A stretch of DNA of 49,286 nucleotides from Arcobacter sp. (GTDB lineage: Bacteria; Campylobacterota; Campylobacteria; Campylobacterales; Arcobacteraceae), in assembly GCA_015663165.1 (NCBI GenBank), contig DQSS01000354.1:1-49286 (forward strand). Reading direction: 5' to 3'. A program made the position numbers and the translations under genes. Below the pieces are notes generated by a model. The model did no database searches. It had not been told where the DNA came from and was given only the letters and a program-made list of their open reading frames with translations. Positions within the stretch are counted from its first letter, which is position 1; each line of letters opens with the position of its first letter. Positions 26,380-34,952 of this stretch are shown here, piece after piece.

Positions 26380-27402
26380 TTGTCATATATCACAATAAAC
26401 AAACAAAACTTTTTTCATAATTTAGATATTTGTTCAAAAAGAGCAAAATGTAAAGAAAATGTAGCAATAGTACTAAAAGATAATGCATATGGACATGGAT
26501 TGTTAGAAATATCTTCTTTAGCAAAAGAATATGGACTAACAAAAGCAGTGGTTCAAAACATCCAAGAAGCTAAAAAAATCCAATCTTATTTTGAATATAT
26601 CTTAATCCTTGCTGATACGAAAAAAGAGAGTTTGTCACATTCTTTTCACATAACAATCAACAGTATCGATGACATCGAGCATCTGGAAGAAAACACTAAT
26701 ATTCATATCAAAATAGATACAGGAATGCATAGAAATGGAATAGCACCCAATGAACTTGAAAGTACTATACACAAAGCTATTGAGCAAAATTTAAATATCA
26801 CAGGAGTATTTACACATTTTAAAAGTGCAGATATTATGTCGAGTGTTTATTTTTGGCAAAAGTCTATTTTTAGGGACATTAAAAAAAATTTAAGTTTAAT
26901 ATGTGAACAACTAAATATAAGTGAAATAAAACTACATTCTTGTAACTCTTCAGCACTATTTAGAGAAGAGAATTTTAGTGAAGATTTCTGCAGAATTGGA
27001 TTAGCAGCTTATGGTTATGTAGAAAATGAAAATCCTCTATATATTCCAGATTTAAAACCCGTATTATCACTAAATACTCAAAAACTATCTTCAAGAACGA
27101 TAAAAAAAGGTCAAAGTATTGGGTATGGTGGAAATTTTGTAGCAAGTGAAGATATGACATTTTCTACTTATGATATTGGATATGGAGATGGCTTTAAAAG
27201 ATTATCTAATGAGAGATATTTTCAGATAAATAAAAAAGAAAGAACTCTAGGAAATACATCTATGGATAATATGTCTATAAACTCAACAAGAGAAGAAATA
27301 TCTCTATTTGATGATGTAAGACCTTTAGCCAAACTTCACAACACAATTTCATACGAAATACTAACTTCACTAAATCCAAGTATAAAAAGAGTTATAGTTT
27401 AG
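26380..27402 (+). CDS. alr: Alanine racemase (TTG start)
   Basis: 'VAIVLKDNAYGHGLLEIS', 'HIKIDTGMHRNGI', 'DIGYGDGFKRLSN'. Confidence 0.93.
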   Translation: MSYITINKQNFFHNLDICSKRAKCKENVAIVLKDNAYGHGLLEISSLAKEYGLTKAVVQNIQEAKKIQSYFEYILILADTKKESLSHSFHITINSIDDIEHLEENTNIHIKIDTGMHRNGIAPNELESTIHKAIEQNLNITGVFTHFKSADIMSSVYFWQKSIFRDIKKNLSLICEQLNISEIKLHSCNSSALFREENFSEDFCRIGLAAYGYVENENPLYIPDLKPVLSLNTQKLSSRTIKKGQSIGYGGNFVASEDMTFSTYDIGYGDGFKRLSNERYFQINKKERTLGNTSMDNMSINSTREEISLFDDVRPLAKLHNTISYEILTSLNPSIKRVIV

Positions 27403-27651
27403 ATGAATTTAGAAATCATAAAATCTATCAATAAACAAAAAGCAATAAACGCTCTAAATACAATTTGTGAAAATATAAATATTTTAGAAAAAAGAGATAA
27501 ACAAAATACTTCTTTAGACTTAGAAAATATACTAAAACAAACACAAACATATCTAGTGACACTAAACATACAAGAGTTAAACTTACAAGAAATAGATGAA
27601 ATACTATCTTTTGTAGAAGTAACTCATATCAAAATTATGGAAGCCGTATGA
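27403..27651 (+). CDS. Hypothetical small protein (82 aa)
   Basis: ATG directly abuts the alr stop and overlaps the next gene by 4 nt. Coiled-coil-like. Confidence 0.65.
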   Translation: MNLEIIKSINKQKAINALNTICENINILEKRDKQNTSLDLENILKQTQTYLVTLNIQELNLQEIDEILSFVEVTHIKIMEAV

Positions 27652-29486
27652 TTCAACTTACAAACATCGCAAAAAGTTATGGTTCTCAAGACTTATTTAA
27701 AAATCTTGATTTTAGACTAAATAAAAATCAAAGAGTAGGACTTGTAGGAAGAAATGGTTCGGGTAAATCTACTTTGTTTAAACTTATTTTAGGTGAAGAC
27801 CACTATGATGAAGGGGAGATATCTATTCCTAAAGGTTATAAAATAGGTGCTTTAAAACAACATCTTGTATTTACAGAATCTACACTTGTAGATGAAGTAG
27901 CACTTGCACTTAGTGAAGATGATAAGTATTCTATATATAAAGTTGAAAAGTTTTTATTTGGTTTAGGCTTTACGCATGAAGACTTAGACAAATCGCCTCT
28001 TTCTTTTTCAGGTGGATTTCAAATCAGAATCAATCTTGCAAAGCTACTTCTTACCGAACCAAACTTACTTTTACTAGATGAGCCTACGAATTACCTTGAT
28101 ATTTTATCTTTAAGATGGTTGAAGCAATTTTTATGTACTTTTGATGGTGAAGTTATACTTATCACTCATGATAGGGATTTTATGGATGCTGTATCTACAC
28201 ATACTATGGGATTAAATAGAAAACAACTAAGTATCATCCAAGGAGATACTCATAAGTTCTATGCACAACTTCAAAGTGATGATGAGCTATATCAAAAACA
28301 AAAAATAACTCAAGATAAAAAAGTAAAAGAACTAGAAGAATTTATAGCAAAAAACAAAGCCAGAGCTTCAACAGCAGCACAAGCCCAATCAAAAGTGAAA
28401 CTACTAGAAAAAATGGACATCATGGATAGCTTAGGCTATGATAATACTTTAAAGTTTGACTTTAACTTCAAAGATACTCCTGCAAAAGTTTTACTTGAAG
28501 TAAACAACTTATCTTTTGGATATAGCACTGATAATATTCTTTTCAAAGATATATCTTTTACACTTAAAAAAGGTGAGACGATAGGAATAATAGGAAAAAA
28601 TGGGAAAGGTAAATCTACACTTTTAAATACAATAGCAAAAGAACTAACACCTATAAGTGGGAATATAGACTATCATGGAACATCTTCTTTTGGTCACTTT
28701 GGACAAACAAATATATCTCACTTAAATCCTAAAAACAATGTAATGGATGAAATCTATGTATCAAATCCAAAACTTCCAGCATCTGTTGTACGAAGTATCT
28801 GTGGTACTATGATGTTTACAGGCGATAGTGCTGAGAAAAAGATATCTTTACTTTCAGGTGGTGAAAAATCACGAGTAATGCTAGGACAAATAATAGCAAA
28901 AGATGTAAATGTACTATTTCTTGATGAGCCTACAAATCACCTAGATATGGACTCTATAGATGCACTAACAAAAGCTATAAAAAACTTTGAGGGTTCTTGT
29001 ATAATTGTAACACATAGTGAAGCCCTACTTCGTGCTGTATGTGATAGACTTGTAGTATTTTCAAAAGGAAGTGCTAGTACTTTTGATGGAAATTATGATG
29101 AGTTTTTAAGCAAAATTGGATGGAAAGAAGAAAATGACCAAGATAATGTTGAAGTCAAAAAAGAAATTCCAAAAGTAAATAAAAAAGAAAATAAAAAGTT
29201 AAGAAGTGAACTTATTAAACAAAGAAATAAATTAACCTCTCCACTTAAAAAAGAAGTAGATAAGCTAGAATCACAAATAATGAAAATAGAAGAAGACCTA
29301 GAAGTTCATCACGAAGAACTAATATCTGCATCAAATGCTTGTGACAATAGTAAAGTTATGGATATATCAAGAATAGTAACAACACAAGAAAAAGAAGTTG
29401 AAGATAAATTTGAACTACTTGAAATAGCACAAAATAAAGTAGATGACATCACACAAGAATACGATATAAAATTAGAAGGTCTATAA
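27648..29486 (+). CDS. ABC-F family ATP-binding protein
   Basis: Two Walker A ('GRNGSGKSTLF', 'GKNGKGKSTLL'), signatures 'LSFSGGFQIR' and 'LLSGGEKSRV', 'LLLLDEPTNYLD', 'VLFLDEPTNHLD', ABC-F linker. Confidence 0.94.
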   Translation: MIQLTNIAKSYGSQDLFKNLDFRLNKNQRVGLVGRNGSGKSTLFKLILGEDHYDEGEISIPKGYKIGALKQHLVFTESTLVDEVALALSEDDKYSIYKVEKFLFGLGFTHEDLDKSPLSFSGGFQIRINLAKLLLTEPNLLLLDEPTNYLDILSLRWLKQFLCTFDGEVILITHDRDFMDAVSTHTMGLNRKQLSIIQGDTHKFYAQLQSDDELYQKQKITQDKKVKELEEFIAKNKARASTAAQAQSKVKLLEKMDIMDSLGYDNTLKFDFNFKDTPAKVLLEVNNLSFGYSTDNILFKDISFTLKKGETIGIIGKNGKGKSTLLNTIAKELTPISGNIDYHGTSSFGHFGQTNISHLNPKNNVMDEIYVSNPKLPASVVRSICGTMMFTGDSAEKKISLLSGGEKSRVMLGQIIAKDVNVLFLDEPTNHLDMDSIDALTKAIKNFEGSCIIVTHSEALLRAVCDRLVVFSKGSASTFDGNYDEFLSKIGWKEENDQDNVEVKKEIPKVNKKENKKLRSELIKQRNKLTSPLKKEVDKLESQIMKIEEDLEVHHEELISASNACDNSKVMDISRIVTTQEKEVEDKFELLEIAQNKVDDITQEYDIKLEGL

Positions 29487-29487
29487 T

Positions 29488-30744
29488 ATGAATTTTAACA
29501 ACTTTGCTTTAAATCAAAACATCCTAAAAGCACTAGAAGATATCAAATATACAAAAACTACAAGTATCCAAGAAAAAGTTATCCCTTTGATACTAAAAGG
29601 TGAAGATATACTTGCAAAATCTCAAACAGGAAGTGGAAAAACTGCTTCTTTTGTTTTACCTATTTTAAATCAATTTATTGAAGATGAAAAAGTAAAGGTG
29701 AAGAAAAAAGCTTTTATATCTACTATCATTCTTACTCCTACAAGAGATTTAACTATACAAGTAGCACAAACTTTCGAGCTATTTTCAAAGTACTTAGATA
29801 AAAAACCAAAAGTAGTAACAGTTATAGGTGGACTTGAAATACAACAGCAACTTTTAGATATACAAAGTGGTTGTGATATAGTTGTAGCAACTTCAGGAAG
29901 ACTACTAGATATCATAGATAAAAAACAAATAAACTTGTCTTTTGTAAAAAACTTTATTCTGGATGAAGCGGATAAAATGCTTGATTTAGGATTTGCAGAT
30001 GAATTAGACTTGATACTAGAAGAGTTACCTAAGCAAAGACAAAACCTACTATTTTCAGCAACCTACCCAGATAAGATGATGAAAATTGCTTCAAAGATTA
30101 CAGCAAGTGCTTTAAAAGTCGAGATTCAAAAAGAAGCGCCAACAGTTCAAGATATAGAACAAAGAGTTATAGAAGTAAACAAAGAAAACAGAAGTCCACT
30201 TTTAAGGTTTTTACTTAAAACAAACAAATGGAATCAAGTTTTAGTATTTATGGCAAACAAAAGAGCTACAGATAATATTGCAGCAAAGTTTAGAAAGCAT
30301 GGATATCTTGCGGAGTCTTTTCATGGGGATTTAGATCAAGAAGATAGAAACTATACACTTGATGAATTTAAAAAGAAAAATATCAAGATATTATTTTGTA
30401 CAGATATTGCTAGTCGTGGTTTGCATATAGATGATATATCTTGTGTAATAAACTTTGATTTACCAAGAGGAACAGATAGCTATGTACACAGAATAGGTAG
30501 AACTGGACGAGCTGGTAAAAAAGGTGAGGCTATAACATTTATAGACCATGAAGATATAATGCACTTTAAACTTATAGAAAAAAGATGCAATTTGGATATA
30601 ACTTATGAACAAATAGAAGGCTTTGAACTACGGGGTGAGATAAAAGCCAAAGAAAAAGGCTCTGCCCCAATCAAGGGAAAAAGAAAAAGTAAAAAAGACA
30701 AACTAAGAGAAGAGTTAGCAAAAAAGGGAAACAATGAAGTTTAA
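29488..30744 (+). CDS. DEAD-box RNA helicase (RhlE-like)
   Basis: 'AKSQTGSGKTASFVLP', 'LDEADKMLDLGF', 'FSATYP', 'HRIGRTGRAGKKG'. Confidence 0.93.
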   Translation: MNFNNFALNQNILKALEDIKYTKTTSIQEKVIPLILKGEDILAKSQTGSGKTASFVLPILNQFIEDEKVKVKKKAFISTIILTPTRDLTIQVAQTFELFSKYLDKKPKVVTVIGGLEIQQQLLDIQSGCDIVVATSGRLLDIIDKKQINLSFVKNFILDEADKMLDLGFADELDLILEELPKQRQNLLFSATYPDKMMKIASKITASALKVEIQKEAPTVQDIEQRVIEVNKENRSPLLRFLLKTNKWNQVLVFMANKRATDNIAAKFRKHGYLAESFHGDLDQEDRNYTLDEFKKKNIKILFCTDIASRGLHIDDISCVINFDLPRGTDSYVHRIGRTGRAGKKGEAITFIDHEDIMHFKLIEKRCNLDITYEQIEGFELRGEIKAKEKGSAPIKGKRKSKKDKLREELAKKGNNEV

Positions 30745-31225
30745 CAGCAATGTTGTATTTGTAATAGTTATGTTTTTATTTGCTATAACTGTTATATATA
30801 GAAATGATGTAGAAAAAAATAGAGTTGATATCTCTTCTTATCACTTTGATGTAAACGATACTGTACGATACCTTTTAAAAGAAGAGAGTATTTATGTATA
30901 CAATACTTCTAAAAATACTCTAGGAAAAATACACTTCTATAATAGCCCAAAAGGTATACTTTTTGAAGAAGCCTACTTCTTAAATATTCCAAAAAATAAT
31001 TTAGATAAATCTTCTCAAAGCACTAAATATACGAAAGGTTTATCTACTCTTTCATGTAAAGAAGAAAATATATCTATATGTTTAGATTCAAATATAAAAA
31101 GCAATATAAACTATGTACAAAAAGATGGTACAAAATATACTATTCTAAAAAATGATTTTGCATCAAAACTATATGAAAATGTAAATGATTATCAAGAATA
31201 CCTAAATAAAGAGAAACAAAATTAA
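30734..31225 (+). CDS. Hypothetical membrane-anchored protein (163 aa)
   Basis: N-terminal TM 'VVFVIVMFLFAITVIYR'; overlaps upstream helicase. Confidence 0.7.
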   Translation: MKFNSNVVFVIVMFLFAITVIYRNDVEKNRVDISSYHFDVNDTVRYLLKEESIYVYNTSKNTLGKIHFYNSPKGILFEEAYFLNIPKNNLDKSSQSTKYTKGLSTLSCKEENISICLDSNIKSNINYVQKDGTKYTILKNDFASKLYENVNDYQEYLNKEKQN

Positions 31226-31234
31226 CATACTCTT

Positions 31235-33754
31235 ATGTCAAACCTACCTATAAATGAAGTCCTTGATGATATAAAGTCAGCATTTCAAACAAACCATAAG
31301 TTAATACTCCAAGCACCACCAGGTGCTGGAAAAAGTACTGCTGTTCCTATTTCATTTCTAAAAGAATCTTGGATTGAACATAAAATCATAATAATGCTAG
31401 AACCAAGAAGAGTAGCTGTACGAATGGTAGCTTCAAGAATGGCAGAACTACTAGGAGAAAAAGTAGGAGAAACTATAGGATACACCATCAAAATGGAATC
31501 TGTAAAATCTTCTAAAACAAAAGTATTAGTTGTAACAGAAGCAGTACTCGTACGAATGATACAAAGCGATCAAGAACTATCAAATGTAGCCATGGTGATA
31601 TTTGATGAGTACCATGAAAGAAGCATACACACAGACCTATCACTTGCTTTATGTTTACAAAGTCAAGAGCTATTAAGAGAAGATTTAAAAATACTTCTGA
31701 TGTCTGCAACACTAAACGAAAAAGAGCTAACAACCCTACTTCCAAATACTCCCGTAATCACATCAAAAGGAAGACTATACGAAGTAGAAAATATATATCT
31801 TCAATCAAATATACTCCAACCAAATCCAAAAACGATAAATACCCTACTTTTAAAAACTATTTTAAATTCTATTAAAAATGATAGCGGAGATATCTTAGTG
31901 TTTTTAGCAGGATTAAAAGAGATAAAGAACTTACAAAAGTCTTTATCGCAGAATATAAAAGAAGATATACAAATACTTCCCTTATATTCAAGCCTAAGTA
32001 AAAAAGAGCAAGATAAAGCAATAAAGCCATCAAGTACAAGAAAGATAATACTATCTACAAATATATCGCAAACCTCTCTTACTATAAAAGGTGTAAAGGT
32101 TGTTGTTGATTCAGGATATGAAAAACTATCAAGATTCAACTACAACACAAGTATGAACCATCTAGAGCTATCTTTCATATCAAAAGATTCTGCAATTCAA
32201 AGAGGTGGAAGAGCAGGAAGAATAGAAGATGGAAAATGCTACAAACTATGGCACAAAGCAAAAATACTAGAGCAAAGTACAAAGCCAGAGATATTAAGAA
32301 GTGATTTATCTTCTTTGATACTTGACTTATCTTTATGGGGTGTTGATGAATTTGAAGAGCTTACATGGATGGATATACCATCAGAAAAAATCATAAACGA
32401 AACAAAAGAAGTGTTAAACGAACTTCAAATGCTAGATGATGGCTTTAAAATAACATCATTTGGAAAAGAAGCTTTAAGCTTAGGAGTTCATCCTAGATTT
32501 TCATATATGATACTAAAAGCTCATACTTTAGGCTACGCTTATGAAGCTTGTATGCTAGCTTCTATTTTAGAACAAAAAGATATATTTAATACCCAACATA
32601 AAAGTTCAGATATAAAAGAAAGATTTATTGCACTTTATGAAAATAACATACACACGCCATATATCAATACTTTTGTAGCAAAAGACATACTAAAACAAAC
32701 AGACTTTTACTATAGTAAACTAAAGAAAATCAAAAAAATTCAAACTAAAAAAGATATAAACAACTATGAAATCATATCTGTACTTTTACTATTTGCATAT
32801 CCAGATAGACTAGCAAAGATAAGAAAAAAAGATGATGTAAAATACAAACTAAGCAATGCAAAAGGTGCAATACTAGATATAGAAGATACCTTATACAACG
32901 AAGAATATTTATGTGTAGCAAACCTAAATGCAGCAAATAAAGACTCATATATAAATCTAGCTGGAAGTATTTGCCTAAATGATATAGAAAAATATTTCAA
33001 ACACCTAATCAAACAAAACCAAAGCATCACTTACAATAAAGATAAAAATAGATTAGATATCAAAGAACATACTACCTTTTTAAATCTTGAACTTTATAAT
33101 ATAAATGTACAAAATCAAAGCAATATAGACTTTGAAGAACTTATTTTAAAGTTGTTAGAAAAAGAAGGATTATCTCTCCTTTTTTGGAGTAAAAAAGCTA
33201 TAGCACTACAAGATAAAATCAACTATTTGAACAATTATGACTCAAATTTATTAGAAATAGACTTTTCTAACAAATGGCTAAAAACCAATCTTTACTTATG
33301 GATAAAGCCATACTTAAAGGGGATTAACACCATTACAAAACTACAAGACTTAGATGTATATAATATCTTGTTAGGACTTATAAATTGGAACGACCAACAA
33401 ACCCTAGAACAACTTCTTCCAACATCTATAAAAGTACCAAGTGGCTCAAATATCTATATAGATTATTCAAATATAAACACAGCTGTATTAAGTGTAAAAA
33501 TCCAAGAGATGTTTGGTCTTATGAATACTCCAAAAATCTTAAACAACACTATAGATTTACAAATACACCTTTTAAGTCCTGCTAAAAAACCCATACAAAT
33601 AACATACGATATAAAAAGCTTTTGGGAAAATTCATACGGTGAAGTAAGAAAAGAGCTAAGAGGAAAGTACAAAAGACACTATTGGCCAGAAGACCCATAT
33701 GAAGCTATTGCAACAGCAAAGACCAAGAAGCATATGATGAAAGGCTTAGAGTAG
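31235..33754 (+). CDS. hrpB: ATP-dependent helicase HrpB
   Basis: 'QAPPGAGKSTAVP', 'DEYHERS', 'QRGGRAGR', C-terminal 'YGEVRKELRGKYKRHYWPEDP'. Confidence 0.94.
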   Translation: MSNLPINEVLDDIKSAFQTNHKLILQAPPGAGKSTAVPISFLKESWIEHKIIIMLEPRRVAVRMVASRMAELLGEKVGETIGYTIKMESVKSSKTKVLVVTEAVLVRMIQSDQELSNVAMVIFDEYHERSIHTDLSLALCLQSQELLREDLKILLMSATLNEKELTTLLPNTPVITSKGRLYEVENIYLQSNILQPNPKTINTLLLKTILNSIKNDSGDILVFLAGLKEIKNLQKSLSQNIKEDIQILPLYSSLSKKEQDKAIKPSSTRKIILSTNISQTSLTIKGVKVVVDSGYEKLSRFNYNTSMNHLELSFISKDSAIQRGGRAGRIEDGKCYKLWHKAKILEQSTKPEILRSDLSSLILDLSLWGVDEFEELTWMDIPSEKIINETKEVLNELQMLDDGFKITSFGKEALSLGVHPRFSYMILKAHTLGYAYEACMLASILEQKDIFNTQHKSSDIKERFIALYENNIHTPYINTFVAKDILKQTDFYYSKLKKIKKIQTKKDINNYEIISVLLLFAYPDRLAKIRKKDDVKYKLSNAKGAILDIEDTLYNEEYLCVANLNAANKDSYINLAGSICLNDIEKYFKHLIKQNQSITYNKDKNRLDIKEHTTFLNLELYNINVQNQSNIDFEELILKLLEKEGLSLLFWSKKAIALQDKINYLNNYDSNLLEIDFSNKWLKTNLYLWIKPYLKGINTITKLQDLDVYNILLGLINWNDQQTLEQLLPTSIKVPSGSNIYIDYSNINTAVLSVKIQEMFGLMNTPKILNNTIDLQIHLLSPAKKPIQITYDIKSFWENSYGEVRKELRGKYKRHYWPEDPYEAIATAKTKKHMMKGLE

Positions 33755-33764
33755 CCCTTATGTA

Positions 33765-34097
33765 CTATTGTATTATACTATCAATGATACCTAATATTTG
33801 ATTTATAGTTTTTTGATTTGCTTTTTCAATAAATTTTATATTTCTTGAATTATAATCTATTGACTTCATTTGTTCAGCCATTATAAACCCAGTGATATTT
33901 TCACTTTCTACTTCAATATGAAATGGAAAATCCATATTTGTATTGGTAATAAGACAAGCAAAGGCAAGTCCAAGATGCTTATTAAATACTTTATTACTTA
34001 TTATTATAGCGGGTCTTCTTCCCTTTTGTTCATGACCACTTTGTGGTTCAAAACTTAATGCTACTATATCACCTTGATTAGGGATATATTTTACCAT
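33765..34097 (-). CDS. mazF: MazF/PemK family toxin
   Basis: 'YIPNQGDIVALSFEPQSGHEQKGRRPAIIISNKVFN', 'CLITNTNMDFPFHIEV', 'GFIMAEQMKSIDYNSRNI'. Confidence 0.92.
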   Translation of the reverse strand: MVKYIPNQGDIVALSFEPQSGHEQKGRRPAIIISNKVFNKHLGLAFACLITNTNMDFPFHIEVESENITGFIMAEQMKSIDYNSRNIKFIEKANQKTINQILGIIDSIIQ

Positions 34098-34201
34098 TCT
34101 TCTAAACCAACTTTATTGTCAAACTCTTCACACGCTTTATAATTAGATGGTAACTGTTTAACCAAATCACTAATATTATATTTTTCTCGTTTATTTGTAT
34201 A
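34091..34201 (-). pseudogene. mazE: N-terminally truncated MazE antitoxin remnant (C-terminal toxin-binding part only)
   Basis: Open frame YTNKREKYNISDLVKQLPSNYKACEEFDNKVGLEEW*, overlapping the mazF start. It resembles a MazE C-terminal tail ending VGxEEW. Upstream in-frame TGA at 34202-34204; no ATG and no AbrB-like domain. Confidence 0.7.
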
Positions 34202-34206
34202 TCAGA

Positions 34207-34235
34207 AGTATATCATCTGTTTTATTGACTGTCAA
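34207..34235 (-). promoter_or_regulatory. Near-consensus sigma70 promoter for the mazE-remnant/mazF unit
   Basis: Minus strand TTGACA-N17-TATACT. Direct repeat TGATATAC x2 (34197-34204 and 34208-34215 on +, as gtatatca) overlaps the -10. Confidence 0.7.
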
Positions 34236-34250
34236 TATATAGCTAAATAA
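34234..34250. repeat. Imperfect direct repeat flanking recombinase, copy A
   Basis: aatatatagCtaaataa; 16/17 match to 34980-34996. Confidence 0.5.
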
Positions 34251-34255
34251 AAGAC

Positions 34256-34288
34256 ATAAAAAAAGTAGAAACATTACATCCCTACTTT
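34256..34288 (-). terminator. Intrinsic terminator of the recombinase gene
   Basis: Minus strand AAAGTAG-N13-CTACTTT followed by T tract. Confidence 0.7.
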
Positions 34289-34310
34289 CATTCAATTAAT
34301 CTTTAACAAA

Positions 34311-34952
34311 TTAGCTAGCTAATACATCCGTACCCATAGCAGATTCTCTTATATTTCTTTTTTTAACATAGTTATTTAAACCTATATGGTTGTTGTATCC
34401 TAGTAGTTTTGCTATTTTTCTTACACTTAAACCTACACTTAGTAATTCTTCAATTTTATCTCTTTGCTCATCAAACTTTGACTTTTGTATTGTGCCTTTT
34501 GGTTTACCAAGACATACACCTTCAAGCTTTTTAGCTGTAAGTGCTTCTTTAGTTCTTAAACTCATTAAATCTTTTTCTAGGTCTATTGTCATACCTATTA
34601 TACTTAGTATCATCTTTGTAAGCATATCATCCGCACTTATTAAGTCAAGGTTTTGTTTTACACTTATGATTCTAACTCCACCTTTTAGTAGAAACTCTAC
34701 CATAGATAAAACAGTAGATATCGTTCTACCAAATACATTTAGATCAGAAACTAAGATTGTACAACCTTTTTTACAATCTTCTAAAAGTATAGAAATATTC
34801 TTTTCTTCATCAGGAACATTTACTTCTATCTCTACATTTTTAAACAAAGAAAGTTTGTTTTTCTTAAGATATTTAGCAATTTCAATTGCCTGATTATTTG
34901 TATATTCTTCATTATTTTTATTTACTCTTATAAAACTTATTATCTTTTCCAC
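34311..34952 (-). CDS. Serine recombinase (resolvase/invertase) family protein with substituted catalytic residues
   Basis: 'FIRVNKNNEEYTNNQ' (RVS to RVN), 'VSDLNVFGRTI', 'DLEKDLMSLRTKEALTAKKLEGVCLGKPKGTIQKSKFD', C-terminal HTH 'LSVRKIAKLLGYNN'. GTG start. Confidence 0.85.
   Translation of the reverse strand: MEKIISFIRVNKNNEEYTNNQAIEIAKYLKKNKLSLFKNVEIEVNVPDEEKNISILLEDCKKGCTILVSDLNVFGRTISTVLSMVEFLLKGGVRIISVKQNLDLISADDMLTKMILSIIGMTIDLEKDLMSLRTKEALTAKKLEGVCLGKPKGTIQKSKFDEQRDKIEELLSVGLSVRKIAKLLGYNNHIGLNNYVKKRNIRESAMGTDVLAS

Follow-up and report, generated by a model that had tools for sequence, protein, structure and literature searches.

One close known relative of the locus considered here is the chpA-type MazEF (PemIK) system of Escherichia coli. 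In the E. coli complex, MazF is contacted chiefly through MazE residues 54-67 (site II) and 68-82 (site I), and the toxin is inhibited in vitro and in vivo by a peptide of 12 aa that binds at the 54-67 site (PMC12557383). On the toxin side, the basic or polar residues of the loop flanking the catalytic threonine are reported to move upon RNA binding (PMC10864209). For closer relatives, searches of related genomes provided a comparison set of about 80 loci, together with some further ones. In nearly all of them the frame that overlaps the start of the toxin gene encodes a whole MazE of about 80 aa; the overlap is uniformly 7 nt in the close family, and more than 30 loci, mostly from Campylobacterota, combine this identical overlap with a full MazE of ~81 aa. 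Several genomes of the same family contain loci whose sequence is identical to that of named Arcobacteraceae/Arcobacter records, which makes an Arcobacteraceae the probable host. Aligned upstream DNA gives these intact relatives a common promoter (TTGACA, a 17-nt spacer, TATACT), and their mazE genes start with an AAGGA-type Shine-Dalgarno sequence followed by ATG. A tandem GATATAC-N4-GATATAC element, operator-like in appearance, overlaps the -10 box of mazEF promoters throughout the close family. The mazF starts are weak in all loci, with predicted duplex energies of about -3 to -4 kcal/mol for most, assuming an E. coli-type anti-Shine-Dalgarno. Given this weak Shine-Dalgarno and the overlap with the end of mazE, translation of mazF in intact loci probably depends, to judge from the anatomy, on ribosomes finishing mazE.

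In the window, by which we mean the whole 49,286-nt stretch of Arcobacter sp. DNA analysed, the corresponding locus and its surroundings contain the following features.

34097..33765, minus strand: mazF, toxin gene of the MazF/PemK family, 110 aa, ATG start, open frame.
34201..34091, minus strand: upstream frame YTNKREKYNISDLVKQLPSNYKACEEFDNKVGLEEW, 36 codons ending in GLEEW and a stop, with no ATG.
34189..34091, minus strand: mazE remnant, codons 50-81 (the toxin-binding tail, REKYNISDLVKQLPSNYKACEEFDNKVGLEEW) and the stop, overlapping mazF by 7 nt (34097-34091).
34189..34190, minus strand: deletion junction in the alignment of upstream DNA, where the leader ATACAAATAAA is joined directly to CGAGAAAAATAT (MazE codon 50).
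34235..34207, minus strand: retained ancestral mazEF promoter, TTGACA at 34235-34230, 17-nt spacer, TATACT at 34212-34207, with TG before the -10.
34214..34197, minus strand: operator-like tandem repeat GATATAC-TTCT-GATATAC, with T at 34204 in place of the conserved G that precedes the second unit.
34174-34172 (ATT) and 34165-34163 (TTG), minus strand: near-cognate starts, the sole candidates for a mini-antitoxin, without a good Shine-Dalgarno.
34311..34952, minus strand: serine recombinase/resolvase-like gene, a neighbour conserved in the genus with ubiX-coaD-tmk and lying outside the mazEF unit.

The locus is likely a young mazEF remnant, derived from an ordinary type II operon and silenced by a deletion that affected both genes. 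The preliminary description had reported an antitoxin-like frame of about 36 codons, without an ATG or an AbrB-type domain and overlapping mazF by 7 nt. This is borne out, and the frame can be recognised as the tail of MazE: the 36-aa stretch matches residues 46-81 of a full-length relative (E=3.6e-10, 67% identity) and residues 47-81 of a second query (E=1.3e-13, 80% identity), a similarity far beyond chance. A Pfam search of the 36 aa finds no domain, against PF04014 at residues 6-50 in an intact relative. By this comparison, next to nothing is left of the AbrB-type DNA-binding domain (PF04014), and the toxin-binding tail (50-81) is practically complete; the window has the C-terminal tail of a MazE antitoxin and lacks the N-terminal swapped-hairpin domain and a translatable gene. 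The tail itself is not decayed, carrying four nonsynonymous and four synonymous changes, like intact loci.

How was the rest of mazE lost? With L034 and L035 as proxies for the ancestral operon, the alignment shows one internal deletion of ~159 nt, which fused the native promoter and leader to mazE codon 50. The lost segment, whose limits are known to a base or two, comprises the Shine-Dalgarno sequence, the ATG and MazE residues 1-49; at the clean junction, microhomology amounts to about 1 nt at most. The promoter TTGACA...TATACTTC(G)GATATACA is common to the window and its relatives, and in the window codon 50 follows directly. The geometry of the module, with the antitoxin upstream, the overlap with the toxin and the common promoter, is kept around a truncated antitoxin gene. 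Compared with the intact Campylobacterota operons (e.g. L032, L033, L034 and L035), the window thus shares the promoter, the operator-like repeat, the 7-nt overlap and a tail about 80% identical, whereas those relatives encode an 81-aa MazE behind an AAGGA-type Shine-Dalgarno and the window is shorter by about 159 nt. With E. coli chpA-type MazEF it has in common the MazF fold family, the residues E23, R28 and T51, an antitoxin tail upstream with a short overlap and a shared promoter, but its antitoxin lacks a start codon, a Shine-Dalgarno and the AbrB domain, and its MazF carries the substitutions D17E, P49L, K54N and R55M.

The retained upstream region differs from that of the relatives at one conserved base, the T at 34204, where all aligned relatives with the GATATAC element have G. 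The TGA noted upstream of the frame is present and in frame (34204-34202). As it falls after the -10 hexamer and ahead of the predicted transcription start (about 34200), it is probably absent from the mRNA and irrelevant; what stands in the way of antitoxin translation is the lack of any good start. An antitoxin start beyond the TGA was considered and rejected, as no in-frame start exists there and the TGA precedes the predicted transcript. No conserved RNA structure was found in the leader (fold z-score 0.04). In this weakly structured leader the mazF AUG is the first AUG of the predicted transcript, and translation of mazF from its own AUG may still be possible. A promoter-like match (TTGTCA-16-TATAAT, 11/12) is present on the plus strand at 34116-34143, antisense to the mazE remnant; such matches around the remnant are not enriched over shuffles.

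The toxin had been described as apparently intact, which is true of its reading frame, where neither a stop nor a frameshift interrupts the 110 aa, and less so of its residues. The product matches PF02452 (PemK_toxin) with E=1.3e-23 and 83.7 bits against a cut-off of 23.1, as well as 18 solved MazF/PemK/Kid sequences. Alignment to E. coli MazF shows that the catalytic-type residues E23, R28 and T51 are kept, R28 and T51 being R29 and T52 in E. coli numbering. Its membership in the MazF/PemK toxin family is clear from the profile and the catalytic Arg/Thr pair, and it is 91-92% identical to MazF of the intact Campylobacterota loci. A simple marginal reconstruction on a FastTree topology places five amino-acid changes on the branch leading to the window, and four of them (D17E, P49L, K54N and R55M) fall at near-invariant columns. 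At columns at least 93% conserved, these four of five contrast with 29 of the 196 changes assigned to other branches (Fisher p=0.003), a result that depends on the cut-off (p=0.01 at 90%, 0.07 at 97%) and rests on only five substitutions, three of which possibly stem from one event. P49 is invariant in 97 of 97 other homologues of a broad set across phyla. P49L, K54N and R55M sit beside the catalytic T51, in the loop reported to shift its basic or polar residues when RNA binds (PMC10864209). Together with D17E, these changes suggest a weakened toxin; inactivation is not established, because R55M also occurs in one homologue that has a full-length MazE (L083) and position 54 is variable among distant homologues. 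The B. subtilis MazF likewise lacks the proline.

The wider pattern of substitution suggests that the damage is young. The window branch of mazF carries 5 nonsynonymous and 22 synonymous changes, against 196 and 546 on other terminal branches, and this comparison shows no general relaxation of constraint across the whole protein. Since synonymous changes dominate, purifying selection acted on MazF until recently, and its damage is recent. The base changes are not significantly clustered (p=0.22). A template switch or conversion as the origin of the P49-R55 changes was set aside on the same value, no donor being found in the window or the genome.

Full-length mazE, which the preliminary description had proposed to look for in related genomes, is thus present in nearly all loci of the close family with identical overlap geometry, and a few loci show parallel decay. 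L128 (G416) has lost MazE residues 1-11 together with the usual promoter element, and in its MazF the position aligned with the catalytic R29 of E. coli MazF is mutated (R28I); mutation of the corresponding arginine abolished cleavage in another MazF (PMC10893535). In L021/L175 (G047), about the first 31 MazE residues are missing and mazF contains several stops. L023 and L146 are decayed in other ways. As in the window, the N-terminus of MazE is gone from L128 and L021/L175, the C-terminal tail persists and MazF shows damage or suspicious changes. Unlike them, the window keeps both the promoter and an open mazF, and they have decayed further, through R28I and the lost promoter element in the one and multiple stops in the other. 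In this bacterial group, loss of mazE integrity appears to go together with damage to mazF, in a few cases that were not systematically ascertained. Of the two options raised for the truncated frame, an antitoxin pseudogene is the one that gains support, from the single internal deletion of Shine-Dalgarno, start and AbrB domain and from the two loci with a lost MazE N-terminus and MazF decay. Neither the deletion junction nor a close MazF relative was found in viral contigs, and the plasmid homologues of MazF are all below 60% identity.

As a disarmed remnant, the operon would still be transcribed from the retained promoter, autorepression by MazE would be lost and useful amounts of antitoxin would no longer be made. 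Synthesis of MazF would also fall sharply, the gene having no strong Shine-Dalgarno of its own and probably depending, in intact loci, on ribosomes that finish mazE. Toxin and antitoxin would be disarmed together by one 5' deletion, and the deletion would therefore be survivable. The MazF changes P49L, K54N, R55M and D17E may have attenuated the toxin, whether earlier or later than this event, and further decay of the locus would be expected. As hrpB and mazF are convergent and lie 10 nt apart, antisense read-through from hrpB is conceivable and could lower mazF expression further.

Elsewhere around the locus, ABC-F, DEAD-box helicase and hrpB genes and mazEF lie between alr and the resolvase-like gene (26380-34952), and in several members of the genus alr stands directly beside the latter. 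The serine recombinase-like gene is about 78-84% identical across the genus, a conservation unusual for a recombinase. Of eight genus genomes searched, seven, among them that of the window, have it next to ubiX-coaD-tmk. With that position, and with no adjoining mazEF in the other genomes, the resolvase was rejected as part of a mobile mazEF cassette.

Could the surviving tail still act as an antitoxin? In this reading, which we consider unlikely, a peptide of 24-27 aa initiated at a non-AUG codon (ATT or TTG) occupies the RNA-binding site of MazF and neutralises it, without DNA binding or autoregulation. The proposal made in the preliminary description has in its favour that the tail is exactly the toxin-binding part: residues 50-81 correspond to the two MazF-contacting segments of the E. 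coli complex, and the balanced substitutions in the tail also favour it. In L100 and L105, a MazE-type tail upstream of mazF is attached to an N-terminal domain that does not look AbrB-like (MSITTY...), suggesting domain exchange in antitoxins and indicating, on these two sequences, that the tail is modular. Where the proposal falters is initiation. The remnant frame has neither ATG nor GTG and its own Shine-Dalgarno is lost; with the same E. coli-type anti-Shine-Dalgarno, intact mazE starts score -3.8 to -10.7 kcal/mol, compared with -3.0 for ATT and +1.7 for TTG. Nor has a start site evolved at the ATT, because CGAGAAAAATAT upstream of it is ordinary MazE coding sequence, present in intact relatives too. 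None of the other loci compared retains just the tail beside an otherwise healthy MazF. A working mini-antitoxin is conceivable in mechanism, but no finding speaks positively for it. A comparable peptide is SamF (PMC12557383), a 12-residue lab-selected MazF inhibitor, which is likewise short, free of DNA binding and directed at the MazE 54-67 site, but is artificial, unrelated in sequence and expressed from an engineered ATG; translation of the tail in the window is hypothetical. Should the tail be translated, it would be a natural counterpart of such engineered MazF-inhibiting peptides. An extended version, in which the deletion gave rise to a natural DNA-binding-free mini-antitoxin of 24-27 aa (from ATT or TTG), paired with a partly attenuated MazF under a non-autorepressed promoter as a stable hypomorphic pair, seems quite unlikely.

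An artefact, with a full-length mazE in the true genome and a deletion that was introduced by misassembly or belongs to a minority in a strain mixture, is very unlikely. The assembly is fragmented, with 398 contigs and 6% contamination, which leaves some room for such an artefact. However, the clean junction offers no repeat that could confuse an assembler, neither the locus nor a close MazE occurs a second time in the assembly, and the MazF substitutions and the operator change are independent signs of altered constraint.

That a different MazE-type antitoxin encoded in the genome controls MazF in trans, as also suggested earlier, is highly improbable: non-cognate MazEF pairs are reported to cross-neutralise (PMC10893535) and contig C160 encodes a second MazE-like protein beside its own MazF (PF04014, E=2.7e-5), but this MazE matches an intact relative of the lost one with only 34% identity (E=1.8e-4), its MazF is 27% identical to that of the window, and in an assembly that is 94% complete no closer MazE was found, C160 being the only other one above the Pfam cut-off. 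The window's genome (G000) contains five further PemK/MazF-type matches, on contigs C160, C215, C203, C295 and C55, two of them lying within much longer open frames, of 218 and 384 codons.

Toxin-antitoxin loci are often found in decay, so the class is not new. The disarmed mazEF remnant is instructive for the precision with which the missing piece is defined, for its surviving promoter and toxin frame and for the decay series that it forms with L128 and L021. It suggests a rule: where a toxin relies on the antitoxin gene for its translation, loss of the antitoxin through a 5' deletion need not set the toxin free.
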